IMG/VR virus record: IMGVR_UViG_3300038825_001284
Span: 8,153-33,807 of that record
Reading direction: 5' to 3' (one strand)
Source: a virus
Length of the DNA: 25,655 bases
Under the pieces are notes generated by a model. That model was not told the origin of the DNA. It did no database searches and worked only from the letters and a program-made list of their open reading frames with translations. A program made the position numbers and the translations under genes. Each line of letters opens with the position of its first letter. Position 1 is the first letter of the stretch. Below, one piece after another: positions 5,465-18,605 of the stretch.

Positions 5465-5492
5465 TTGAAAATAACCGAGCCCTCTCTATAAT
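5465..5492 (+). promoter_or_regulatory. Sigma70-type promoter lying across the terminator
   Basis: TTGAAA at 5465-5470 (5 of 6 to TTGACA), a 16-base spacer, and a perfect TATAAT at 5487-5492. The -10 box is the loop of the terminator hairpin at 5478-5503. The start point would be near 5499-5500, which leaves only about 10 bases before the ATG at 5510. Confidence 0.6.
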
Positions 5493-5509
5493 AGGAGAGG
5501 GCTTTTTTT
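5478..5509 (+). terminator. Rho-independent terminator after the beta-barrel gene
   Basis: AGCCCTCTC (5478-5486) pairs perfectly with GAGAGGGCT (5495-5503) around an 8-base loop, followed by a run of seven T (5503-5509). This is the strongest terminator in the window. It ends exactly where the next gene's ATG begins. Confidence 0.9.
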
Positions 5510-5917
5510 ATGAATTTTATAACTTTATACGGCAAAGAAAAACCTGTTAGAAATGCACACAGGTACAAAATTAAATGGAATGGTAAATGCAGAAGCAAAT
5601 TCCAACGTACAGTAAGATCTTATTTGTACAAGCATTGGCGCTACGATGCCGTATATGAGGAGTTTAAGGTCGCAGGTACACAACTTAGCCTAGACTTCTA
5701 CAATCACACTAAAAAGGTAGCTATAGAGGTGCAGGGCGCACAACACCTTAAGTTTGTAAAGCATTTTCACAAAACCAGAGCTAATTTTGTACGTCAAATA
5801 CGTAGAGATAACAAAAAAATGGAATTTTGTGAACTAAATGAGATCAAACTGATAGAAATTTACCCAGATGACGAATTATCCGAAGAATATTTTGATAAAA
5901 TTTTAACTGAAGTGTAA
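5510..5917 (+). CDS. Vsr-fold / EDxHD-type endonuclease-like protein
   Basis: 135 residues. The core LDFYNHTKKVAIEVQG..H matches the Vsr-like restriction-fold nucleases related to the EDxHD homing enzymes (I-Bth0305I type). D62 is in the first strand, E73-V-Q-G-A-Q-H79 follows, and D100 is in a helix followed by the closing strand IKLIEIYPD. The N-terminal 45 residues are very basic, fitting DNA binding. Function could be a free-standing homing endonuclease or a repair/recombination nuclease. The ATG lies directly after the terminator T-run and has no separate Shine-Dalgarno; AGGAG at 5493-5497 is in the hairpin arm. Its own promoter and self-contained position suggest an inserted cassette. 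Confidence 0.65.
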   Translation: MNFITLYGKEKPVRNAHRYKIKWNGKCRSKFQRTVRSYLYKHWRYDAVYEEFKVAGTQLSLDFYNHTKKVAIEVQGAQHLKFVKHFHKTRANFVRQIRRDNKKMEFCELNEIKLIEIYPDDELSEEYFDKILTEV

Positions 5918-7726: not shown

Positions 7727-8753
7727 AGAAGCATTAGAAGACTTAGGTTATACACTTCAAGATTGTGGTTCACATTGGAGGAGCAACGCTATTTATAGAA
7801 GTGGAAAAAACAAAACTGCTCTTATAATATACAAAGACACTGGTGTTTGGAAAGATTTTGGCACAGATAATGAAGCTAAACCTTTTACTGCGTTAGTTAG
7901 AGAAACCCTAAAAACAGAAGATCCAAAGGCGATTCAAAAGTATGTTGATTACATACCTAGATCACCAGACCTAGCCAAAAAAGTAGCAGAAAAAATAGAA
8001 ATGGAAAAAATATACCCAAAATCTTTTTTAGAAAAACTTTTACCGATTAGGACTTTCTACAATCAAAGAGGTATTTCAAATGAAACACAAAAAACATTTG
8101 AGTGTGGTTATGCTGGTAATGGTAAAATGTACAGACGTATAGTTTTTCCTATTTATGATTTAAATAATCAAATACACGGATTTTCTGGCAGGACTGTTAT
8201 AGATGGTGAAAATATTCCCAAGTGGAAACATATGGGTCGTAAAACAGATTGGGTTTACCCACACCATCTTGCGCACGATAATATAGAAGAATCTGGTGAA
8301 GTTATTTTGGTAGAAAGTATTGGCGACTGTATGGCTCTCTATGAAGCTGGTTTTAAAAATGTTCTGATGCTTGCTGGTCTAGATATATCATCTAAAGTTA
8401 TGTCTTATCTTAACAGTTTTGATTTGGATAGAATTATCGTATCAATGAATAACGACAAAGATAAGGAAACTAATTCTGGTGGAATAGCTACAATTAAAAC
8501 CGTTGCTAAACTATCTCAAATATATGATTTAGATAGAATATGTGTCAATCCACCACTTGCAAATGATTTTGGAGATATGTTACAATCGAACCCATCTAAC
8601 ACTAATATATTTTCTAAGTGGCACGCTAGAAAGTGCAAATGGAATTTGTCAGAAGGAAAAACACAAGACTGGATCAAAGAACAAATTAAATCAACAGACG
8701 CACTACGAAAAAATGGCAACTGTAAAAAACTAATTAAAATTTTAGATTCATGA
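7716..8753 (+). CDS. DnaG-like primase with Toprim domain
   Basis: 345 residues. The Toprim catalytic core is clear: E200 in VILVESIGDCMALYEAG and D247-K-D249 in IIVSMNNDKD. Upstream, TFECGYAGNG and RRIVFPIYDLNNQIHGFSGR are the typical RNA-polymerase-subdomain segments of DnaG. The N-terminal region has the shape of the zinc-binding domain (HWRSNAIYR, then YKDTGVWKDFG) but lacks its cysteine set; only C17 and H20 are present. It makes RNA primers together with the overlapping upstream DnaB. The C-terminal 50 residues are basic and helical, a possible helicase-binding tail. It lies in the helicase operon and ends in ATGA with the next small gene. Confidence 0.85.
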   Translation: MTYKEALEDLGYTLQDCGSHWRSNAIYRSGKNKTALIIYKDTGVWKDFGTDNEAKPFTALVRETLKTEDPKAIQKYVDYIPRSPDLAKKVAEKIEMEKIYPKSFLEKLLPIRTFYNQRGISNETQKTFECGYAGNGKMYRRIVFPIYDLNNQIHGFSGRTVIDGENIPKWKHMGRKTDWVYPHHLAHDNIEESGEVILVESIGDCMALYEAGFKNVLMLAGLDISSKVMSYLNSFDLDRIIVSMNNDKDKETNSGGIATIKTVAKLSQIYDLDRICVNPPLANDFGDMLQSNPSNTNIFSKWHARKCKWNLSEGKTQDWIKEQIKSTDALRKNGNCKKLIKILDS

Positions 8754-9581: not shown

Positions 9582-10570
9582 TGGAAGTAAAATTATCAGC
9601 AAGCCGTATAAAAACGGCTCAATCTTGTAGTTGGCTGTATTGGTCTAAATACAAATTAAAACTACCAGAAAATGGTAATGATGGCGCCAGAAGAGGTACT
9701 GTTTGTCACAATGTTTTCGAGCATCTATCTAAACAAAAAACCAAAACACAATTTAATAAAATAGTTAAAGCTAAAGATCCTTTTGCATGTAAGGCGGTAA
9801 AAGATTTAATTATGTCTGATGCTACAGAGCTTGGTGTTACGGACGAAGATAACATGACGCTTATAAAACAAATGATTCTCAATGGTTTGAGTTGTAATTT
9901 TCACGGAGAAGAATTAGGTATACCAGACGAAGCTCACGCAGAGTTAGATTTTGACATAGAAAAAAACGGTTATCATATAAGAGGTTTTATAGACCAGTTG
10001 TTTTTATACAAAGACAAAAAGATCGCTATAATCAGAGACTATAAGACGAGCAAAAAAATGTTTGAGGGTAAAGAAAAAGATGACAACCTTCAAGACTATA
10101 TGTACTGTTTAGCTGTTAAGCATTTATTTCCAGAGTATGTAAACAGAAGTGCAGAGTTTTTATTTTTAAAGTTTGACCTAAAGAAAAAAGGTTTGATGAA
10201 AATGAAACCATTAGACGAAGATGATTTAGAGGGTTTTGAAATGCAGTTGGCAAATGTTCAAAACTATTTAGAGAACTTTGATGAGTGTGATGCTGTTGGT
10301 AATTTTGCTTACGACAAAGGCTTTCCAGATGATGGTACATTCAGCGGTAAATTACAATGTGGATTCGCAGAGAAGAAAGGGCAACTAAAGAAAGATGGTT
10401 CTTTAATGTGGCATTGTCCGTTTAAGTTTGATTTCTTTTATGTAGAAATATTAGATGCAGAAGGTGTACATATTTCCTCTTGCTTCCAAGATGACTTTGA
10501 CAAAAGCATGGTGCCCGAAGGTGGCAAACATTCAATTAAATATTATAAAGGGTGTCCAAAACATTTATGA
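9581..10570 (+). CDS. PD-(D/E)XK nuclease (RecB/Cas4-like)
   Basis: 329 residues. LSASRIKTAQSCSWLYW followed by ARRGTVCHNVFEHL is the N-terminal signature of RecB-family nucleases. The active site is D138 in IRGFIDQLF and D153-Y-K155 in IIRDYKTSK, followed by the Q-D-Y-M-Y helix (the usual Q-x-x-x-Y). Cys16 and Cys279, Cys301 and Cys325 are arranged as one N-terminal and three C-terminal cysteines, which recalls the iron-sulfur cluster of Cas4/AddB nucleases. The spacing is loose, so this is only a suggestion. It probably trims DNA ends for recombination or degrades DNA. The gene ends in ATGA with a second nuclease-like gene. Confidence 0.75.
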   Translation: MEVKLSASRIKTAQSCSWLYWSKYKLKLPENGNDGARRGTVCHNVFEHLSKQKTKTQFNKIVKAKDPFACKAVKDLIMSDATELGVTDEDNMTLIKQMILNGLSCNFHGEELGIPDEAHAELDFDIEKNGYHIRGFIDQLFLYKDKKIAIIRDYKTSKKMFEGKEKDDNLQDYMYCLAVKHLFPEYVNRSAEFLFLKFDLKKKGLMKMKPLDEDDLEGFEMQLANVQNYLENFDECDAVGNFAYDKGFPDDGTFSGKLQCGFAEKKGQLKKDGSLMWHCPFKFDFFYVEILDAEGVHISSCFQDDFDKSMVPEGGKHSIKYYKGCPKHL

Positions 10571-11043
10571 AAAAATTTAAAGTTACAAAAGACCAACTAA
10601 ATAGAGCTAAAAAACTTTTTGATTTTAAAGAGTTAAACAACAGCATTACAAAAGGTGAAGGTAATCTTGCGGGCGCTGTTGGAGAAATTGTAGTTAAAGA
10701 TGCGTACAAAGGAACTGGTGAGAATACATATGATTACGATACAATTATTAAAGATTATAAAGTAGATATAAAAACAAAAAAGTTCTCAGACCAATTTACC
10801 CCAAACAAAGATTGGAATTTAAATGTTTCTGATTATAATACTAGGCAAAAATGTGATGCTTATTGCTTTGTTGGTGTTAATGAATCTAACACTTTAGCCT
10901 ATGTTTACGGTTTTATGAAAAAGAAAGATTTTTACGATAAAGCTGTATTTGGTAAGAAAGGGCAGATAGACCCTAGAGGCAACGGTAAATGGAAGTTTAA
11001 ATCAGATTGTTACAATATTTTAATTAAAGATTTAGCGATATAA
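10567..11043 (+). CDS. PD-(D/E)XK-type nuclease-like protein
   Basis: 158 residues from the ATG at 10567, which overlaps the previous stop; a GTG at 10552 is in frame but inside the previous gene. LAGAVGEIVVKDAY, then YDYDTI and YKVDIKTK, give E40, D58 and D67-I-K69, the usual acid helix plus D-x-K pattern of restriction-type nucleases. The later DAYCFVGVNE strand also fits that fold. The target is unknown; host DNA degradation or phage repair are both possible. A new promoter begins 3 bases after its stop, so it is the last gene of the helicase transcript unless there is readthrough. Confidence 0.6.
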   Translation: MKKFKVTKDQLNRAKKLFDFKELNNSITKGEGNLAGAVGEIVVKDAYKGTGENTYDYDTIIKDYKVDIKTKKFSDQFTPNKDWNLNVSDYNTRQKCDAYCFVGVNESNTLAYVYGFMKKKDFYDKAVFGKKGQIDPRGNGKWKFKSDCYNILIKDLAI

Positions 11044-11045
11044 TC

Positions 11046-11073
11046 TTGACAAATTAGTATTACTATCTATATT
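11046..11073 (+). promoter_or_regulatory. Strong leaderless-type promoter for the polymerase operon
   Basis: Perfect TTGACA at 11046-11051, a 16-base spacer, and TATATT at 11068-11073 (5 of 6). Six bases then lead to the ATG at 11080, so transcription should start on or next to the start codon. There is no Shine-Dalgarno sequence. Confidence 0.75.
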
Positions 11074-11079
11074 GGTAGT

Positions 11080-11775
11080 ATGATTCCATTTTTTAAAACA
11101 CATTCTTCTATTGGTAAAAGTATTTTACGCATAGATGATGTACACGAGTTGACAAAAGACTTCGAAGAGGTTCACTTTGTTGAAGATAGTATGACAGGTT
11201 TCCCAGAAGCCTTTAGAAAGTTTGAAGATAGATTACGTTTTGGTTTGCGTTTTTCTATGTACAACGACGACCATAGCGAAGAATCAGAAAGTAAAATGAT
11301 TGCTTTTGCAAATGGTGATGCTGGTGCAAAAGAATTGTACAGCCTTTACACCCAACAATCGGATACTAAGATCACAAGGCCTTGGGATTCTACAAAAAAT
11401 TTGCAGTATGTTGTACCCTTTTACGATTCTTTTTTACATAAAAACTTAACAACCTTTTCTAATTGTGTTGTTGATTTACCTTTTGACGTCCCATTTATGA
11501 TTGAAGATAATAATCTCCCTTTTGATTGTTTGATTGAGGATAAGATTTTAAGTTATTGTAAGAATCACCCAAACGAATATTTTAACGCAAAGTCAATATA
11601 TTATAAAGACAAAGAAGATGTTTTGGCTTTTCAAACTTATAAATTAATTTGTAACCGCAGGATAGGTAGAACTTATGATCTATCGAACCCTGGACTAGAT
11701 CACTTTGGTAGTGACGAATTTTGTTTCGCATCATGGAAGAATTACTTAGGTACAACTTTAAACAACGTTATATAG
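11080..11775 (+). CDS. PHP-like N-terminal domain of DNA polymerase III alpha, as a separate gene
   Basis: 231 residues. The start FFKTHSSIGKSIL, the middle segment MIAFANGDAGAKELYSLYTQQ and the end NAKSIYYKDKEDVLAFQTY with GSDEFCFASWKNYL line up in order with the PHP domain of DnaE (H-x-H-x-x-Y-S-x-L-D-G; L-L-A-x-N-x-x-G-Y-x-N-L; N-D-V-H-Y, E-D-A; F-x-S-D-E-F-Y-L-K-S). Most metal-binding histidines are lost: only H8 remains, and the HY of the last motif is YY. It is therefore probably structural. The protein stops where DnaE would continue into its palm and fingers; that part is encoded at 12914. It probably binds the catalytic gene product. The proofreading exonuclease starts inside its 3' end (43-base overlap). 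Confidence 0.75.
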   Translation: MIPFFKTHSSIGKSILRIDDVHELTKDFEEVHFVEDSMTGFPEAFRKFEDRLRFGLRFSMYNDDHSEESESKMIAFANGDAGAKELYSLYTQQSDTKITRPWDSTKNLQYVVPFYDSFLHKNLTTFSNCVVDLPFDVPFMIEDNNLPFDCLIEDKILSYCKNHPNEYFNAKSIYYKDKEDVLAFQTYKLICNRRIGRTYDLSNPGLDHFGSDEFCFASWKNYLGTTLNNVI

Positions 11776-12362
11776 TTTTTGATACCGAGACAGAGGGATT
11801 AAATTTAATCACCTCTAAACCTTGGCAGATAGCTTGGATTGAATGCGAAGGTAAAAAAGTCATCAAAAAACATAATCGTTTTATCAAGTGGGACGACTTG
11901 AACGTATCTCCAGATGCTGCACGAGTTACTGGATTTGATAGAGATTATTACGAATCTGTTGCAGAAGATCCAATGGTTGTTTGGAAAGACTTTGAAAAAG
12001 CCTTGTATGGTAATAACATTGTTCTTGGTCACAATATTCTTGGTTATGACATTTATATCTTAGGCGTTTGGCTTAGAAAGATGGGCGTAAGAATTAGTTA
12101 CGAAAATTTTATTGGTCAACTTTTAGATACGAATATTTTAGCAAAAGCTATAGCAAAAGGTGATAAAAATCCAGGTGGTGAACTACTTGCTTGGCAAATG
12201 AGATACCTTCACTTTAGAGAACGTGGTTTAAAAACAAACCAGAAACATCTATTACAGCATTATAATATTGACTTTGATGAAAAAAAGCTACATGATGCTT
12301 TATACGATATAGAAAAGAACTTCGAAATATTTCAAAAACAAATATGGGAACTGGAGATATAA
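11733..12362 (+). CDS. DEDDh 3'-5' proofreading exonuclease (DnaQ-like)
   Basis: 209 residues from the ATG at 11733; an in-frame TTG at 11721 is also possible. The four acids and the histidine are present: D17-T-E19 in YIVFDTETEG (ExoI), D106 in VLGHNILGYDIYIL (ExoII), and H187 with D192 in LHDALYDIEKN (ExoIII, DEDDh type). The family uses two metal ions to remove mismatched 3' nucleotides. The order PHP, exonuclease, polymerase recalls the domain order of PolC, in which the exonuclease is inserted in the PHP domain, so it probably works with the flanking polymerase parts. The 43-base overlap with the PHP gene implies coupled translation. Confidence 0.88.
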   Translation: MEELLRYNFKQRYIVFDTETEGLNLITSKPWQIAWIECEGKKVIKKHNRFIKWDDLNVSPDAARVTGFDRDYYESVAEDPMVVWKDFEKALYGNNIVLGHNILGYDIYILGVWLRKMGVRISYENFIGQLLDTNILAKAIAKGDKNPGGELLAWQMRYLHFRERGLKTNQKHLLQHYNIDFDEKKLHDALYDIEKNFEIFQKQIWELEI

Positions 12363-12366
12363 ACAA

Positions 12367-12921
12367 ATGGTAAAAGATTTTGATACAATTATATTTGATA
12401 GACCAGAGGCTTTTTTGCATACAGTGCAATGGGGATCCTTTGTATTACTTAGGGAGATTGAAAGAGATATTGCTTTAACTAATCTTTTTCAAACTTATGA
12501 TTTTAAACAAGAAAATAACGACTATACTATAACTTTAGATGGGTTGTTAATGCTTGAGGGTCATATTACAGATTTTAATGGTTCGTTTTCTATATTTAGT
12601 ATAGTTCAATCTTTGCAATACAATTATTATATAGAATTTAAATTATTCTTTGATTGTGGTCGCTTAAGAAAAGCTAGTTGCGAAGATGTTAAAAAAGTAT
12701 CTATAAATTCAGACAAACTTAGGCACGATTTTAACAACCACATTGAAGATTTAAAAAAAGAATTTAAAAAATTCTTAAAAGAACGAATTACCTTAGAAAA
12801 AAAACACATGCAGGCTTTGCACGAAGTCGACATGGAAAAGTTCAAAAGTGAGCAATTAATTATTTTTAATAATAAGCTTGCAGAAGAAATTAAAAACATT
12901 AGTATCATTATAAATGCTTAA
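12367..12921 (+). CDS. Hypothetical protein with C-terminal coiled coil, between exonuclease and polymerase
   Basis: 184 residues. Residues 1-110 look mixed alpha/beta, with no known motif. Residues 115-180 are long, highly charged and helical, with regular leucines (FKKFLKERITLEKK), probably a coiled coil. GGAGAT at about 12353-12358 gives a good ribosome binding site. It overlaps the polymerase start by 8 bases. Being locked between the proofreading exonuclease and the polymerase makes a polymerase-holoenzyme role possible (a tether or small-subunit-like part), but this is inference from position only. Confidence 0.65.
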   Translation: MVKDFDTIIFDRPEAFLHTVQWGSFVLLREIERDIALTNLFQTYDFKQENNDYTITLDGLLMLEGHITDFNGSFSIFSIVQSLQYNYYIEFKLFFDCGRLRKASCEDVKKVSINSDKLRHDFNNHIEDLKKEFKKFLKERITLEKKHMQALHEVDMEKFKSEQLIIFNNKLAEEIKNISIIINA

Positions 12922-15484
12922 ATTAGAATCATTTAAACAACCAATGCCAGTTGGTGTTAGATTACCAGGAATTGAAGTGGAGCAAAGATTCTACGATGAG
13001 TTAGGTATTTCTAATACATCATCTAATTATGACTTGCTTCGTGAGCTATGTCTAAAGGGGGTTAAAGAAAGAGGTGTAGATAAGTTAGATAACAAACAAG
13101 AATATTACGACAGAGTTAAGATGGAGCTGTCCGTTTTGAAAGATTTGGGGTTTATTGATTATATACTTTTAAACTGGGATGTTTTAAACTTTTGCCATGA
13201 GAATAAAATACCAACTGGGCCAGGTCGTGGTTCTGCGGCCGGCTCGTTGGTATTATATCTATTAAAGGTTACAAATATCGATCCAATCAAGTATGATTTG
13301 TTTTTTGAGCGATTTGTATCCAAAAGCAGAGCTAAAAAGACCATTGTTGACGATATAACGTACCTAGACGGCTCTTTGTTGGCTGACGTGGACAATGACA
13401 TCAGTTACGACAGAAGAGCCGAGGTGATCAAATATATTGAAGAAAAGCATAAAGGTAAGACTTGTAAGATATTAACTTTAAACACATTGAGTAGTAAATT
13501 GTGTGTAAAGGAGTGCGGAAAGATCGTGGGAGGGTTCTCAGAAGAGGAGGTTAATGACATTAGCGCCTCTATACCAAAACAGTTCGGAAAGGTATTTAAG
13601 TTGCAAAAAGCTTACGATGAAAGCGAGAAACTTAAAAAGTTTTGCGATGACAACCCTAAAGTATTTAACATTGCCAGAAAACTAGAAGGATTAAACAAGA
13701 ATACTGGCGTTCACCCATCGGGGATTGCGATTAGCTTCTATAACATACAAGAAGTTATGCCAATGCAAAAAACTAATGACGGTAATTATGTATCTGGTTA
13801 CGACATGAATGACGTTGCATCTTTGATGGTTAAATTCGATATCTTAGGATTAAGAACATTATCTGTTGTTTATGACACTCTTAAACAACTTAATATGGAC
13901 ATAGAAACTATAGATGTTGAGTCAGATAACATATATGAAAACTTCAAATTCATTGAGGCACCAAAGGGTCTCTTCCAGATTGAGGCGGATACAAACTTTA
14001 AGGCGGCTAGGAAAATTGCTCCTCGTAATCTTGAAGAATTATCTGCCGTGGTTGCTATTGCCCGTCCTGGTGCTCTTGATTATTTAGATACATACGCAAG
14101 TTATATAAAAACTAGCGTGTTCAGTTCTGTCCACGAGTTTTTTGATGATATTTTATCATATACTGGTGGTATTCCTTTATACCAAGAACAGTTGATGAAG
14201 ATGGCTGTTAAGGTTGGATTCACACTTGATGAAGCGGAACAACTTAGACGTATTGTCGGTAAGAAAAAAGTAGATCAAATGCCAGCATGGAAAGCTAAGA
14301 TCGAAGAAAAGATTGAAGAAAATAATTTACCAAAACAAGTTGGTGATGTTCTTTGGAAAGTTGCTGAAGACTCAGCTAATTACTCATTCAATAAGTCACA
14401 CTCAATTAGTTATGCTACTTTGGCGGCTATAACAACTTACTTAAAATTTAACCACTCAAAAGAGTTCTTTTTATCTTTGCTTAAAATGACAAAACATGAG
14501 CCAGACTCTCATGCAGAGATAGCTCTCATCAGTCAAGAGCTTTGTTTATTTAATATGAAACTCTTACCACCAGACTTAGCCAAATCAGATATTGAATTTT
14601 CTATTGAAGGTGATAACATTAGATATGGTTTAAATAGTATTAAAGGCGTATCTGAAAAAACATTAGAAAATGTTGTTGAGTTTAATAAATCTCAATTGAT
14701 AGAACAAAATAAATATGATGTGTTTTTAACAGCTAAAGACTCTGGCATCAATATTGGTATACTATCTGGCTTGATACAAGGCGGTATGATGGACTCTTTT
14801 TGTGATAACTCTAGCGGTGTACCAAATCGTTGCAGGCTTGTACTAGAAGCTCAATCTTTCAACCTACTTACAGATAGAGAAAAAAGAAACTTCACACAAT
14901 TAGGTCAAAAGTTTAATTATGACATACTAAACTCTATAGCTTCAGTTAGAAAAGAAGCTTGGCCAGCAGATGACGGTAGACCATTAATAAAAGACTCCAG
15001 ATTTAAGACATTTAAGAGGGATTATGACAAATATCGCCAAATTTACGATAAAAATAAAGAACATTTAGTTTTTGCTAATTGGTTCTTTGAGCGCAAGTAT
15101 TTGGGGTATAGCCACTCAAATGAGATTAAAAAAGTGTTTCAAGACACAAAGAATCTTGTGAATAGCTTAGAATTAAAGTCAATTGAGCAAAATGACCGTG
15201 TAAAGTATGTTGGAGTCGTAACAGATTGCGTTTCCAGAACAAGTAGAGCAGGTAATAAGTACATGAGAGTCGAGATACAAGATGATTATGGTAAAGTTAA
15301 TTTTATGATGACCAACAACAGAAGGTCAGCTACTCTAGATAATTATCTAAATGAAGGCGGTAAAAAGCCCAAAGAAGGTCAAATTGTTTTCATTTATGGT
15401 ACGAAAGGTGAAGATATAATCTTCGGTGAAAAGCTAAACATTCTAGATGAAAAAATCTATACAAGACTATCAGAAATTAAATGA
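12914..15484 (+). CDS. dnaE: DNA polymerase III alpha catalytic body (C-family) without PHP domain
   Basis: 856 residues. G102-P-G-R-G-S-A-A-G-S starts the nucleotide-binding palm. The catalytic acids are D158 and D160 in LLADVDNDIS and D309 in MVKFDILGLRTL; the D160-D309 spacing of 149 is close to E. coli DnaE (403-555). HPSGIAIS, GLFQIEAD, ARPGAL, GGIPLYQEQLM, EQLRRIVGKKK and SANYSFNKSHSISYATLA are all classic DnaE finger and thumb motifs. The C-terminus (about 755-850) is an OB-fold. It begins with about 70 residues before the palm, and the PHP domain is a separate gene at 11080; together 1,087 residues match a whole DnaE. A segment of about 13 extra residues lies before D158 (around 142-157). 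It replicates the phage genome; no clamp is visible in the window. Confidence 0.93.
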   Translation: MLKLESFKQPMPVGVRLPGIEVEQRFYDELGISNTSSNYDLLRELCLKGVKERGVDKLDNKQEYYDRVKMELSVLKDLGFIDYILLNWDVLNFCHENKIPTGPGRGSAAGSLVLYLLKVTNIDPIKYDLFFERFVSKSRAKKTIVDDITYLDGSLLADVDNDISYDRRAEVIKYIEEKHKGKTCKILTLNTLSSKLCVKECGKIVGGFSEEEVNDISASIPKQFGKVFKLQKAYDESEKLKKFCDDNPKVFNIARKLEGLNKNTGVHPSGIAISFYNIQEVMPMQKTNDGNYVSGYDMNDVASLMVKFDILGLRTLSVVYDTLKQLNMDIETIDVESDNIYENFKFIEAPKGLFQIEADTNFKAARKIAPRNLEELSAVVAIARPGALDYLDTYASYIKTSVFSSVHEFFDDILSYTGGIPLYQEQLMKMAVKVGFTLDEAEQLRRIVGKKKVDQMPAWKAKIEEKIEENNLPKQVGDVLWKVAEDSANYSFNKSHSISYATLAAITTYLKFNHSKEFFLSLLKMTKHEPDSHAEIALISQELCLFNMKLLPPDLAKSDIEFSIEGDNIRYGLNSIKGVSEKTLENVVEFNKSQLIEQNKYDVFLTAKDSGINIGILSGLIQGGMMDSFCDNSSGVPNRCRLVLEAQSFNLLTDREKRNFTQLGQKFNYDILNSIASVRKEAWPADDGRPLIKDSRFKTFKRDYDKYRQIYDKNKEHLVFANWFFERKYLGYSHSNEIKKVFQDTKNLVNSLELKSIEQNDRVKYVGVVTDCVSRTSRAGNKYMRVEIQDDYGKVNFMMTNNRRSATLDNYLNEGGKKPKEGQIVFIYGTKGEDIIFGEKLNILDEKIYTRLSEIK

Positions 15485-16872
15485 CCGATTTTTCAAGCTA
15501 CAATCTAACACCCTCCGCTAAAGAAGCCTTGGTAAGAGCGCAGGAAATCGCGGGTGAAAACGGTCACTTAAAAGTTATAGATGTTCACTTAATATACTCC
15601 ATCTTTAAAGGCGAGCAAAACAATATAAAATTTGCAATGGACATGAATGGTTGGTTGCCAGAGGGTTTTATGACAGCTTTAGAGTTAGTCTTAGAATCAT
15701 ATAAAGAACCCAAAAGAAAATATAGAATTTTTGCAAAAGAAATATTTGAAATATTAGATAAATCTAGAGAACTAGCCGAAAAAACAAAAGATGATTTTAT
15801 AGGCGTAGACCACATGCTTATTACCATCTTAAAAACAAGAAACGAGCTAAGAACATTTTTTATAGGTCTAAGAATAGATGTTGATAAATTTTGCAGTACA
15901 TTATTGTACGTAATTAAAAATGGAATCGACTACAACTCTCCACCTCCAATGGTGGAGGTTGTTGCTCCGTCTTCTACAACCAGTAACACAAAAACCAAAC
16001 CAGATATTGATGATTGGTGTGAAAATATTAATCAAACAATTAAAGATCGTGGTACATTCGAAATCTTTGGTAGAGAAAAAGAAATAGAAAGATCTTGCGA
16101 AGTGTTGTTGAGAAAAAATAAGAGTAATATTATTTTAGTTGGTGAAGCGGGTGTTGGTAAAACTGCTATCGTGGAAGGATTAGCGGAAAGAATAGTGCAA
16201 AACAAATGTCCCAAATTCTTAAAGCATAAAAAAATTCTTTCTTTAGATATGACCTCTGTTGTCGCGGGAACAATGTATCGTGGCCAAATGGAAGAAAAGG
16301 TAAAACAAATCATTGACAAAATATCAAACAGTGATGAATACATCTTGTTTATCGATGAGATACATACAATTGTAGGCTCTGGAAGTTCTGAGGGCAGTCT
16401 AGACTTAGCTAATAGCTTAAAACCAGTTTTATCTAGAGGCGGTTTTTCTTGTATTGGAGCTACAACAAAAGATGAATACAATAAATACTTTAAAGGCGAT
16501 TCGGCTTTAAATCGTCGTTTTGAAAAAGTAGATGTATTAGAACCCACCAAAGAAGAAACTGTTAAACTAATGCTCAAGGCAAAATCTTCTTATGAGAAGT
16601 TTCACGATGTTAGATTTACTCCTACAATCATTAGACAATTAGTTGACCTTTGTGAAGAGTATCTACCAGAAAAGAAGTTTCCAGATAAAGCGTTTGATAT
16701 TATAGATGAGGCTGGCGCTAAAACTAGAATTTTAAACTGTGATTCTCAAGATGTTACTAAAGTAGAATTAAATACAATACATACTATTTTTGCTCAAAAA
16801 TTAAACACTACGGTAGATAATGTAAGAAACAATACAAATATTTCTGTTGGAAAACAGATAGGTTTTATTTAA
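15481..16872 (+). CDS. Clp-N plus single AAA+ (D1-only) Clp-like ATPase
   Basis: 463 residues. Two Clp-N repeats (residues 7-150; LTPSAKEALVRAQEIAGENG and RIFAKEIFEILDKSRELAEK) are followed by a linker rich in P, S and T and by one AAA+ module. Walker A is G-E-A-G-V-G-K227-T, Walker B is ILFIDEIHT (D292-E293), sensor 1 is GATTKDEY, and the arginine finger region is NRRFEKV (R345-R346). It matches the D1 ring of ClpA/ClpC/ClpB, but there is no second AAA domain, no ClpP-docking loop and no middle coiled coil. It overlaps the polymerase stop by ATGA. It might remodel the replisome or hijack host Clp; neither is shown by the sequence. Confidence 0.85.
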   Translation: MTDFSSYNLTPSAKEALVRAQEIAGENGHLKVIDVHLIYSIFKGEQNNIKFAMDMNGWLPEGFMTALELVLESYKEPKRKYRIFAKEIFEILDKSRELAEKTKDDFIGVDHMLITILKTRNELRTFFIGLRIDVDKFCSTLLYVIKNGIDYNSPPPMVEVVAPSSTTSNTKTKPDIDDWCENINQTIKDRGTFEIFGREKEIERSCEVLLRKNKSNIILVGEAGVGKTAIVEGLAERIVQNKCPKFLKHKKILSLDMTSVVAGTMYRGQMEEKVKQIIDKISNSDEYILFIDEIHTIVGSGSSEGSLDLANSLKPVLSRGGFSCIGATTKDEYNKYFKGDSALNRRFEKVDVLEPTKEETVKLMLKAKSSYEKFHDVRFTPTIIRQLVDLCEEYLPEKKFPDKAFDIIDEAGAKTRILNCDSQDVTKVELNTIHTIFAQKLNTTVDNVRNNTNISVGKQIGFI

Positions 16873-16881: not shown

Positions 16882-17973
16882 ATGTTACAAGATAATTTAG
16901 ATAGTAATTTGAGTTTTTCTGATTTATTGAGAGGGAGGTTAATTGGCCAATCAAAAGATATGTCACTTAGTAATATTGAGTTACAACAAATTCAATATAT
17001 CTTCGAAGACCACTTTAAGCTTTCAACTCAATTTGATTTTCAAAAAGTAAAAAATATATCACTGGTCGATAGAAATTTTGCGTGGGATAGTCTTAAATTT
17101 GATTATGACGGATTAAGTTATCTTTTTAAGTTAGGAGATGAGGAAGACAATTATATTTTTTCAAAAGAATTTAAGTGTTTAAAAAAATTAGAAAAAGATT
17201 TTCAATTAGCACCAAAACCAATTTTGAATGGAGTTGGGCCAGACTATGCTTTCCTTATCACAACTTACGAATACGGTAATCCTATAAAAGATTTAGGTCA
17301 ATCAGAATTATTATCAAGATTAAAGCAATTTGCTTCATGTTTAAGATTATTACATACTAATAAGTCAGAATCTTCTGATTTTGAATTTTTTCTTGAATAT
17401 TATTTTACTCAAGGATCTTTCGAAGAAATTTTAGATGAAGAATTGTATAATACTCTAACTAAAACTAAATATTTTAAAAAATGTCAATCTATATTAAAAG
17501 AATTAAATAGAACAATTAAACTTCAAGTTAAGAATTTGGTAGATTCAAATATATCAATCTGTCACATGAATTTTACAGAATCAAATATTTTAGTAAGAGG
17601 GCGAATGATGAAATTTATTAATTTTGACAAAAGCCTTGCCTTAAACCCATTGTGGGACTTAGCCATGGCTTCAATAAAATTAGATTTAGTAAGTTATCCC
17701 AAATTAGAGTCAAAGTTTTTAATGTATTATGATAAATTTAATTACGACTATAATTGTGAAGCTTTACCAGCCTATAAAGATGTAGCGTTCAAAATAATTT
17801 TACACGATTTAATTTGCAGTTATTTTTTTAAGATAATTATTAAAATAGATAGGAATAGTGTTTACAATTTATACAAACAATATGAAACAATTAGACATTT
17901 AATTCATAATGAGTTTCCATCTTTTTTAGAGGTTTTAGATGAAATGTTTGGAGATTTTCAAAAACAACTTTAG
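16882..17973 (+). CDS. APH/choline-kinase-like protein, possible pseudokinase
   Basis: 363 residues. It has the eukaryotic-like kinase fold of the aminoglycoside phosphotransferase family. A nucleotide-binding lobe (LVDRNFAWDSLKFDYDGLSYLFKL) is followed by the hinge ITTYEYGNPI, LRLLHT, and the catalytic loop H228-M-N230-F-T-E-S-N235-I-L, then FINFDK with D249 and a W-D-L-A motif. The usual H-x-D catalytic Asp is Asn at position 230, while the metal-binding N235 and D249 remain. It may therefore be inactive or bind without phosphorylating. The C-terminal 110 residues are helical. It follows the Clp-like gene by 9 bases and ends 4 bases into a convergent gene. Confidence 0.6.
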   Translation: MLQDNLDSNLSFSDLLRGRLIGQSKDMSLSNIELQQIQYIFEDHFKLSTQFDFQKVKNISLVDRNFAWDSLKFDYDGLSYLFKLGDEEDNYIFSKEFKCLKKLEKDFQLAPKPILNGVGPDYAFLITTYEYGNPIKDLGQSELLSRLKQFASCLRLLHTNKSESSDFEFFLEYYFTQGSFEEILDEELYNTLTKTKYFKKCQSILKELNRTIKLQVKNLVDSNISICHMNFTESNILVRGRMMKFINFDKSLALNPLWDLAMASIKLDLVSYPKLESKFLMYYDKFNYDYNCEALPAYKDVAFKIILHDLICSYFFKIIIKIDRNSVYNLYKQYETIRHLIHNEFPSFLEVLDEMFGDFQKQL

Positions 17974-18605
17974 TAACTCCAATCTGAGTCACCAAATAGC
18001 TCAAAAGGTTGCTCCAACCATTCTTTATCCCAAACAGCATTTTCTGCTACTTTCCATTTAGGTATTCTTTTTATAGCTTCAGTGCTACTTAAAGATTCTG
18101 GAATCCATTTTAACCTATTGTTAGGATAGATAGCTATCTGACCATTTTTAAGACGAATTACGTTCATTTCTTTATGTTCGTCTAGTAAATCAGAGTCACC
18201 TACATCCATATATCCAAGTGATTGTTTTTCTGGAATGCAATCAATAGTAAACCAGTAATTGCCTTCTTCAAAGTCTCCATCGCCCATATTAACTAACATA
18301 GGTACGTCTGCAAGTTGAGCTTTTTGGAATAATTCTATATCGTTAGATAAACATTCCCACATTTGCACATCAACTAAATCTAGTTTTTCGTGGTCTTTTT
18401 CTGGTTTTTTCCAGTATAAACAATCGGGTCTTACTTTATCGTAACAAGCACAGTGACTATCTACCCACACTTGAAAGCAAAAAGGTCTACCTCTTAACGC
18501 TCTTACAGAAACTAACCACGCGGGCTCAAACTCCTCTTCAGAACCTCCCCACATATCTTTTCTTACGAAAACTCTAGCTTTAGGTAAATTAATATTTCTA
18601 GGCAT
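17970..18605 (-). CDS. Hypothetical Trp- and Cys-rich protein on the minus strand
   Basis: 211 residues, ATG at 18605-18603, the only minus-strand gene inside the plus-strand block. The protein holds 11 tryptophans and 6 cysteines, mostly in the first 135 residues (WVDSHCACYD, DCLYW, MWECL). There is no signal peptide and no recognised family. The C-terminus ends in ELFGDSDWSY. It converges with the kinase-like gene (4-base overlap) and diverges from the ssDNA-binding candidate across a 58-base gap. Its own promoter is probably in that gap. This isolated, oppositely read arrangement is typical of accessory (moron-type) genes, which is an inference. Confidence 0.6.
   Translation of the reverse strand: MPRNINLPKARVFVRKDMWGGSEEEFEPAWLVSVRALRGRPFCFQVWVDSHCACYDKVRPDCLYWKKPEKDHEKLDLVDVQMWECLSNDIELFQKAQLADVPMLVNMGDGDFEEGNYWFTIDCIPEKQSLGYMDVGDSDLLDEHKEMNVIRLKNGQIAIYPNNRLKWIPESLSSTEAIKRIPKWKVAENAVWDKEWLEQPFELFGDSDWSY

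Follow-up and report, generated by a model that had tools for sequence, protein, structure and literature searches.

Can the PHP domain of a replicative DNA polymerase be cut loose as a gene of its own and still serve the enzyme, and from which polymerase family would such an arrangement have come? The window analysed here, the whole stretch of 25,655 nucleotides from IMG/VR virus record IMGVR_UViG_3300038825_001284 (positions 8,153 to 33,807), raises this question between its positions 11,080 and 15,484. A first-pass annotation, made from the sequence, read this region as a split C-family polymerase: a free PHP gene, a DEDDh exonuclease gene, a gene for a coiled-coil protein, and a polymerase body beginning at the palm, all under one promoter. 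The open reading frames are present as it listed them, all on the plus strand, and the overlaps of 43 bases between the PHP and exonuclease genes (11733-11775) and of 8 bases between the last two genes (12914-12921) are correct. The split itself also stands, with the free PHP gene followed by the exonuclease gene and then the PHP-less body in one transcription unit.

Parts of the split polymerase

The first gene (11080-11775) encodes a stand-alone protein of 231 residues (PHP) that itself has no Pfam or PHROG support, and its naming was at first a guess from the sequence. Structure prediction, which had been put forward as a check on that guess, returned a PHP fold: the AF2 model (pLDDT 85, pTM 0.83) superposes on residues ~6-252 of E. 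coli DnaE with a Z score of about 20 over 220 residues (VIA-align), and Foldseek matches it to E. coli Pol III alpha (E 3e-9). PolC is matched at Z 16-17 only when the alignment spans the PolC exonuclease insert. Profile alignment with bacterial DnaE PHP domains covers 224 columns at a probability of 98.3-99.1% (hhalign), and PF02811 scores above cut-off in contigs from 13 of the 19 large relatives, each time within an unfused ORF some 250 residues long. By model and profile, 11080-11775 is a PHP fold, the counterpart of E. coli DnaE residues ~6-252.

Active PHP nucleases carry the metal-binding motif HHDHEH[C/H]DH (PMC12926913). The phage protein departs from it at all eight mappable positions, each replaced or lost; the C/H position is not confidently alignable, and any single deviation fails the motif. 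In no fewer than 93% of 235 alleles, four of the ligand positions are occupied by basic residues (K6, K/R13, R57, K72). Because every mappable metal-ligand position has been lost, the PHP subunit is, judged on its residues, very unlikely to be a nuclease. The PHP domain of E. coli DnaE is catalytically dead as well; unlike in E. coli and Thermus DnaE, the phage PHP is a separate polypeptide and its metal site has given way to conserved basic residues.

The second gene (11733-12362) encodes a DEDDh 3'-5' exonuclease (EXO) of 209 residues, matching Pfam RNase_T (8.6e-14) and PHROG 192, the DNA polymerase exonuclease subunit (4e-23). Its residues D17, E19, D106, H187 and D192 are invariant in 18 relatives, so the catalytic set is complete. 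The methionine at 11733 is the conserved EXO start in alignment A3; the longest ORF starts earlier, with a TTG at 11721. EXO is probably the proofreading subunit. In all 18 aligned rows it ends about 17 residues past the last catalytic aspartate and so, unlike DnaQ/epsilon, is without an epsilon-like C-terminal tail. In E. coli this tail is the part that binds the PHP domain of alpha, and the docking mode of the phage exonuclease would therefore differ from that in E. coli.

The polymerase body (POL, 12914-15484) has 856 residues and matches DNA_pol3_alpha (PF07733, 3.4e-63), the finger domain (PF17657, 6.6e-29) and HHH_6 (PF14579, 4.6e-12) above the curated cut-offs. Its catalytic residues D158, D160 and D309 are invariant in 19 relatives and align with E. 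coli D401, D403 and D555. As first read, the polypeptide starts just before the palm and the PHP domain is absent; a short linker remnant leads into palm/NTPase, fingers, HhH and a weak C-terminal OB (PF01336 at 0.0013, below cut-off, and a further faint match to the OB region of DnaE). Inteins and homing elements interrupt polymerases in this group, and some relatives have split-intein halves within the polymerase body.

Between EXO and POL lies a gene for a protein of 184 residues (12367-12921). Its AF2 model is good and combines a beta-rich N-terminal domain with a long C-terminal helix (115-183), in support of the coiled-coil character noted earlier; Foldseek against the PDB finds no known fold (best match E 0.38). 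Compared with relative L062, the gene amounts to an inserted segment of about 570 bp, and it is missing from most relatives, close ones included. The first-pass annotation had all four proteins in one complex, a view left unsupported because the fourth is such a lineage-specific insertion, and a three-protein complex of PHP, EXO and POL is likely instead. Downstream (15481-16872, plus strand) follows a ClpA/B-like AAA+ protein of 463 residues (Pfam AAA / AAA_lid_9; PHROG 4871, 'ATP-dependent protease', 8e-99). Its gene adjoins the polymerase gene in most loci, and its function is presumed to be separate from the polymerase.

A sigma-70-like promoter, TTGACA-N16-TATATT (11046-11073, plus strand), had also been read correctly: it matches the consensus at 11 of 12 positions and is conserved, recurring with unchanged spacing in 77% of the upstream regions of 231 relatives compared with 2.6% of shuffles. 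Its -10 box ends 6 nt ahead of the PHP start codon, and the operon mRNA is for this reason predicted to be leaderless, starting at that codon. Few Shine-Dalgarno-like motifs occur in the relatives' upstream regions.

Origin of the polymerase

By its sequence the polymerase is DnaE-type, not PolC-like. A profile search of the PDB with POL gives about 4e-114 for DnaE against ~1e-7 for PolC; the PHP protein is uninterrupted, without PolC's exonuclease insert, and the domain order is DnaE-like. With the DnaE and DnaQ/epsilon of E. coli and Thermus the phage system shares the palm/finger/HhH body, the catalytic aspartates, the PHP fold and a separate DEDDh exonuclease, although the body is only ~30-33% identical to other DnaEs; among isolate phages, too, the closest POL relatives are only 30-33% identical.

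The first-pass annotation had entertained the fission of a PolC-like ancestor, with the gene order PHP, exonuclease, polymerase as a relic of the PolC domain order. PolC does likewise combine PHP, DEDDh exonuclease and C-family polymerase, and its exonuclease lies inside the PHP domain. It does so in a single chain with an N-terminal OB and extra domains, and the sequence match is very weak; the PolC hallmarks looked for here (N-terminal OB or KH domains, an exonuclease within PHP, one chain) are absent. Nor is the gene order an echo of PolC, since in PB1-like and Wifcevirus phages, too, a DEDDh exonuclease gene directly precedes that of the fused DnaE polymerase. A tree had been proposed as a further check. 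In it the split polymerases form one clade (SH-aLRT 100), in line with a single origin; the stem of this clade is long and the rows of DnaE1 and DnaE2 fall outside it, in a tree without a DnaE3 row. An AU test that included one PolC sequence does not reject a branch with the split group and PolC together on one side (p 0.24), a result that early branching of the split group fits too. Given the far stronger DnaE match and the uninterrupted PHP, descent from PolC is very improbable. The polymerase of Lactococcus phage 949, considered as a PolC, groups with DnaE-type rows in the tree.

DnaE-type polymerases are also found in PB1-like Pseudomonas phages, Wifcevirus, Stanwilliamsviridae and Moorella phage MTATph1. 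In the known phage DnaEs examined, unlike here, the core starts after ~260 or more N-terminal residues, which correspond to a fused PHP region, and the C-family polymerases examined among 50,697 annotated phage records are fused. Cyanobacteria with a split-intein DnaE likewise make a replicative DnaE from two genes, but in their case protein splicing through the intein joins the halves into a single chain, whereas the phage PHP-palm junction has no intein and an exonuclease gene lies between the parts.

Conservation and distribution of the split

The same block recurs widely in IMG/VR. Among 245 distinct PHP alleles from many metagenomes, PHP is a separate gene in all, with no fusion, and the order PHP, exonuclease, polymerase on one strand is kept in 211 of the 213 loci with enough downstream sequence. 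In 227 loci, PHP adjoins EXO in 148 and EXO adjoins POL in 125; one or more genes separate PHP from EXO in 79. Nineteen contigs of 107-194 kb each hold exactly one PF07733 gene and no ORF long enough for a fused PHP-polymerase, so that the fusion elsewhere in the phage that would have spoken against a split was found neither there nor among the alleles. No contig with upstream sequence has the polymerase without PHP.

These numbers bear on the notion that the split arose by accident in one contig, through frameshift, assembly error or homing-element damage, and has no lasting meaning. Interruption of this group's polymerases by inteins and homing elements lends it some plausibility, yet another gene stands between the two parts and the 245 distinct alleles come from many metagenomes, making such an accident scarcely credible.

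The lineage is known from metagenomic contigs alone, of up to 194 kb, with at least 562 contigs confirmed, and we propose that it is a large uncultured group of tailed phages of bacteria. No beta-clamp gene was recognised. In the collection of 50,697 annotated phage records no relative of the PHP protein was found, even at E 10, besides unrelated matches. Foldseek against viral models found fused or truncated phage DnaEs and one PHP-domain protein of 175 residues (TMq 0.39), and no close counterpart of the 231-residue protein. In the literature consulted, which covers work on virus replicases in part, we found no description of a PHP domain with a gene of its own; the separate-gene arrangement, with a dead PHP beside a proofreading nuclease, seems to be undescribed. 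In locus L013, identities of ~95% in PHP and EXO against 81% in POL hinted at module swapping between EXO and POL, an idea we rejected: along the DNA, similarity stays level across EXO and two thirds of POL, then drops near 14805.

Proposed working of the split replicase

We propose that an ancestral DnaE-type polymerase broke once, long ago, at the PHP-palm boundary. The three genes would be expressed from one promoter on an mRNA that is leaderless from the PHP start codon, and the PHP subunit would dock on POL in trans, just as the fused domain of an ordinary DnaE does in cis. The docked, dead PHP would serve as a scaffold holding the DEDDh exonuclease, which would carry out proofreading, and PHP, EXO and POL together would make up the phage's main replicase. 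A single split at this boundary, with PHP docking in trans and holding the exonuclease, is in our judgement quite probable.

The free PHP protein may instead have ceased to work with the polymerase, as a leftover recruited elsewhere (for example as a regulator, or as a nucleic-acid binder via its basic cluster) while the body works with the exonuclease alone. The conserved Lys/Arg cluster in place of the metal site would suit such a role, as would the genes lying between PHP and exonuclease in roughly a third of loci. Covariation with the polymerase is weak as well: mean-field DCA on 95-193 sequences (effective 60-80) gave 1.4-fold for PHP-POL against 0.8 for PHP-Clp in one run, and 1.0, near background, in the larger run. 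We nevertheless regard recruitment elsewhere as unlikely, given the almost invariant gene order, the constant company of polymerase and PHP, and a fold kept over the entire length that packs on the polymerase in DnaE. It is similarly doubtful, though conceivable, that PHP acts as an exchangeable proofreading adaptor whose Lys/Arg cluster, by binding DNA or a partner, determines whether the exonuclease stays on the polymerase; if it did, fidelity could be altered by subunit exchange in trans.

The split replicase, in which PHP would dock in trans, offers a natural case for asking what the PHP domain is for, as a dead nuclease domain that is otherwise always kept attached. That it has been detached and kept next to the exonuclease across more than 200 distinct loci, with the metal site lost, points to a structural, exonuclease-holding role, which may be tested by adding or omitting one subunit. 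The arrangement extends the known replicase architectures to a phage lineage common in metagenomes and not represented among the annotated phage records searched.

A stand-alone PHP subunit

The open frames proposed for the window (G000:C1:8153-33807 of a 33,807-bp IMG/VR virus record) in a first-pass annotation are correctly placed. The polymerase body POL, at 12914-15484 (+), has Pfam matches to DNA_pol3_alpha (3.4e-63), finger (6.6e-29) and HHH_6 (4.6e-12), while the exonuclease EXO, at 11733-12362 (+), matches RNase_T (8.6e-14). The 231-aa product of 11080-11775 (+) has no Pfam or PHROG match, so its annotation as a free PHP domain required proof.

A polymerase scan of viral contigs gave 60 relatives; wherever their sequence extends upstream of the polymerase, a homologue of the 231-aa protein is encoded there. 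An AF2 model based on 32 aligned homologues (alignment A1) reached pLDDT 85 and pTM 0.83. Its top PDB match by Foldseek was E. coli Pol III alpha (3.3e-9), and the first 20 were all Pol III alpha, alpha-epsilon chimera or PolC chains. In VIA-align, 220 residues align with E. coli DnaE 6-252 (Z 20); the PolC match (Z 16-17) is spread across residues 340-788 because PolC carries its exonuclease inside the PHP domain, whereas the phage protein has no such insert. Profile-profile alignment with bacterial DnaE PHP domains covered 224 columns at a probability of 98.3%, or 98.7-99.1% when larger sets were used. Among 19 contigs of relatives (107-194 kb), 16 have a PF02811 match in a free ORF of ~250 aa, which in 13 exceeds the curated cut-off; no contig has a second PF02811 match. 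The model and these family matches together show that the phage protein has a PHP fold, bearing out the annotation; a PHP domain fused to a polymerase, which would have spoken against it, occurs in none of the 19.

EXO has the full DEDDh set of five residues in 18 relatives, and the catalytic aspartates of POL are invariant. The metal motif of the PHP protein is lost. In alignments to DnaE PHP domains, K6 stands in place of motif I's second His, K/R13 in place of the next Asp, R57 in place of the Glu ligand and K72 in place of a later His. A hydrophobic residue occupies the first His position, Ser and Tyr take the places of the final Asp and His, and the TDH histidine aligns with a gap. Basic residues recur among 235 PHP alleles at positions 6 (K, 219/235), 13 (K or R, 234/235), 57 (R or K, 232/235) and 72 (K or R, 234/235). 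Judged from these alignments, the stand-alone subunit is catalytically dead, and the conserved basic cluster at the former metal site suggests that the pocket now serves a different, non-catalytic purpose.

Conservation of the gene order

Polymerase-seeded and PHP-seeded scans together yielded 245 distinct PHP alleles, of which 213 have at least 2.5 kb of downstream sequence. PHP, EXO and POL follow one another on the same strand in 211 of these 213. In the two exceptions, L253 and L278, other genes come after PHP or EXO, and these loci may be rearranged or cut; they are the only PHP-bearing loci with sufficient downstream sequence that have no polymerase nearby, and L278 has several other ORFs between PHP and EXO. 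Of the loci whose polymerase start is intact and that extend 3.5 kb or more upstream, all (90/90) have both PHP and EXO. In the loci of the 245-allele set, none of the three was seen fused to another. PHP adjoins EXO in 148/227 loci and EXO adjoins POL in 125/227; elsewhere, variable inserted genes fill the slots.

The 184-aa gene at 12367-12921 (+), previously counted as the fourth member of a replicative complex, is one such insertion. It is found in only a few close relatives and is missing from locus L062, whose flanking DNA is otherwise 85% identical to the window. Its modelled product, a beta domain with a long helix, has no match in the PDB. The conserved unit therefore comprises three genes, not four. 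Gene insertions concentrate in the PHP-EXO and EXO-POL slots, where they fall into 19 and 16 clusters, respectively; by eye only, some resemble PD-(D/E)XK nucleases, SET-domain, IMPDH-like and cupin proteins. A small acidic protein (72-116 aa) lies between EXO and POL in ~78 loci.

Several polymerases are themselves interrupted. At four loci (L097:8372-11576, L104:8372-12250, L110:8712-12608 and L153:9614-12598) the body is cut at ..SANYSFNK / SHSISYA.., the first ORF ending in an intein N-half and a later one beginning with a C-half of ~37 aa. This is likely a naturally split intein, and it lies close to where the cyanobacterial DnaE split intein is found; L104 and L110 have extra ORFs of ~315 aa between the halves. 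A 1262-aa polymerase (L094:8926-12714) contains, at another site, an in-frame intein that includes a LAGLIDADG domain. L163 and L167, from a Lokiarchaeota MAG, contain two PF07733 polymerases whose N-terminal region is the size of a PHP domain; each is broken after ~625 aa, with the remainder in another ORF, probably through another intein or intron. The MAG contigs L151-L157, which carry the phage block, are labelled Lokiarchaeota, Woesebacteria, Verrucomicrobiales, Halobacteriovorax, Flavobacteriaceae and others; since the bins span very different genomes, these are most likely misbinned phage contigs that give no host information.

Transcription and neighbouring genes

The promoter proposed at 11046 is conserved among relatives. 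A sequence agreeing with the sigma-70 hexamers at 9 or more of 12 positions, its -10 box ending 5-8 nt ahead of the PHP start codon, was found in 77% of 231 distinct upstream regions versus 2.6% of shuffles, 3% at EXO and 5% at POL; the same holds for 66 of 99 mutually divergent regions. Shine-Dalgarno-like motifs precede PHP in 13/231 cases versus 88/224 for EXO. The -10 box spacing predicts a leaderless PHP transcript, beginning at or beside the start codon. Another promoter-like match (TTGAAA..TATAAT, 5465-5510, +), directly ahead of an HNH endonuclease-like gene (5510-5917), overlaps the arms of a strong hairpin, AGCCCTCTC..GAGAGGGCTT, and is more likely a terminator.

Upstream of PHP in the window group lies a gene for a 163-aa protein (10552-11043, +), whose KVDIKTKK stretch resembles a PD-(D/E)XK nuclease core; in L028, L042 and L050 the PHP-EXO slot contains a distant homologue. 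The ClpA/B-like protein (15481-16872, +) has 460-500 aa in the window's close relatives versus 755-840 aa in most other loci, so its C-terminal half seems lost or replaced. A minus-strand gene (17970-18605, -) that matches the PHROG 3704 'ferredoxin' family (2.9e-35) interrupts an otherwise plus-strand stretch.

Ancestry and predicted assembly of the split replicase

A POL profile reached 4e-114 against the Thermus DnaE structure and 2e-100 against that of E. coli, versus only 1e-7 for PolC. Phylogenetic analysis of 46 polymerases placed the split bodies in a single clade (SH-aLRT 100) on a long stem, separate from the DnaE1 and DnaE2 rows; the phage polymerases closest to them are fused. An AU test, in a set with a single PolC sequence, did not reject grouping of the split bodies with PolC. 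The DnaE phages examined have a PHP-sized N-terminal region ahead of the palm, whereas the window's POL has none. Fission of a PolC-like ancestor had been suggested from the gene order. The order itself demands no such ancestor, because PB1-like and Wifcevirus phages also have an EXO gene directly upstream of the polymerase.

In E. coli Pol III, epsilon docks on the PHP domain, which also supports the fold of alpha. In the simplest model, drawn from that enzyme, the phage PHP subunit would rejoin the DnaE-type polymerase body in trans and, once reassembled, hold EXO. EXO lacks the C-terminal tail of epsilon and so must dock in another way, for which an invariant L-L/I-R motif at its N-terminus is a candidate site. 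Covariation of PHP-POL column pairs (effective sequences 60-80) was 1.4-fold over-represented in one run, versus 0.8-fold for PHP-Clp, and near background (1.0) in a larger one. No beta-clamp gene was found in the 19 large contigs, so the enzyme may use a host clamp or an unrecognised one. We infer a three-protein assembly in which PHP docks on POL and holds EXO. A split replicase with a stand-alone PHP subunit is absent from the annotated phage collection searched and is apparently undescribed; the gene fission of a DnaE-type replicase in these phages is real, ancient and widespread, and has been conserved.
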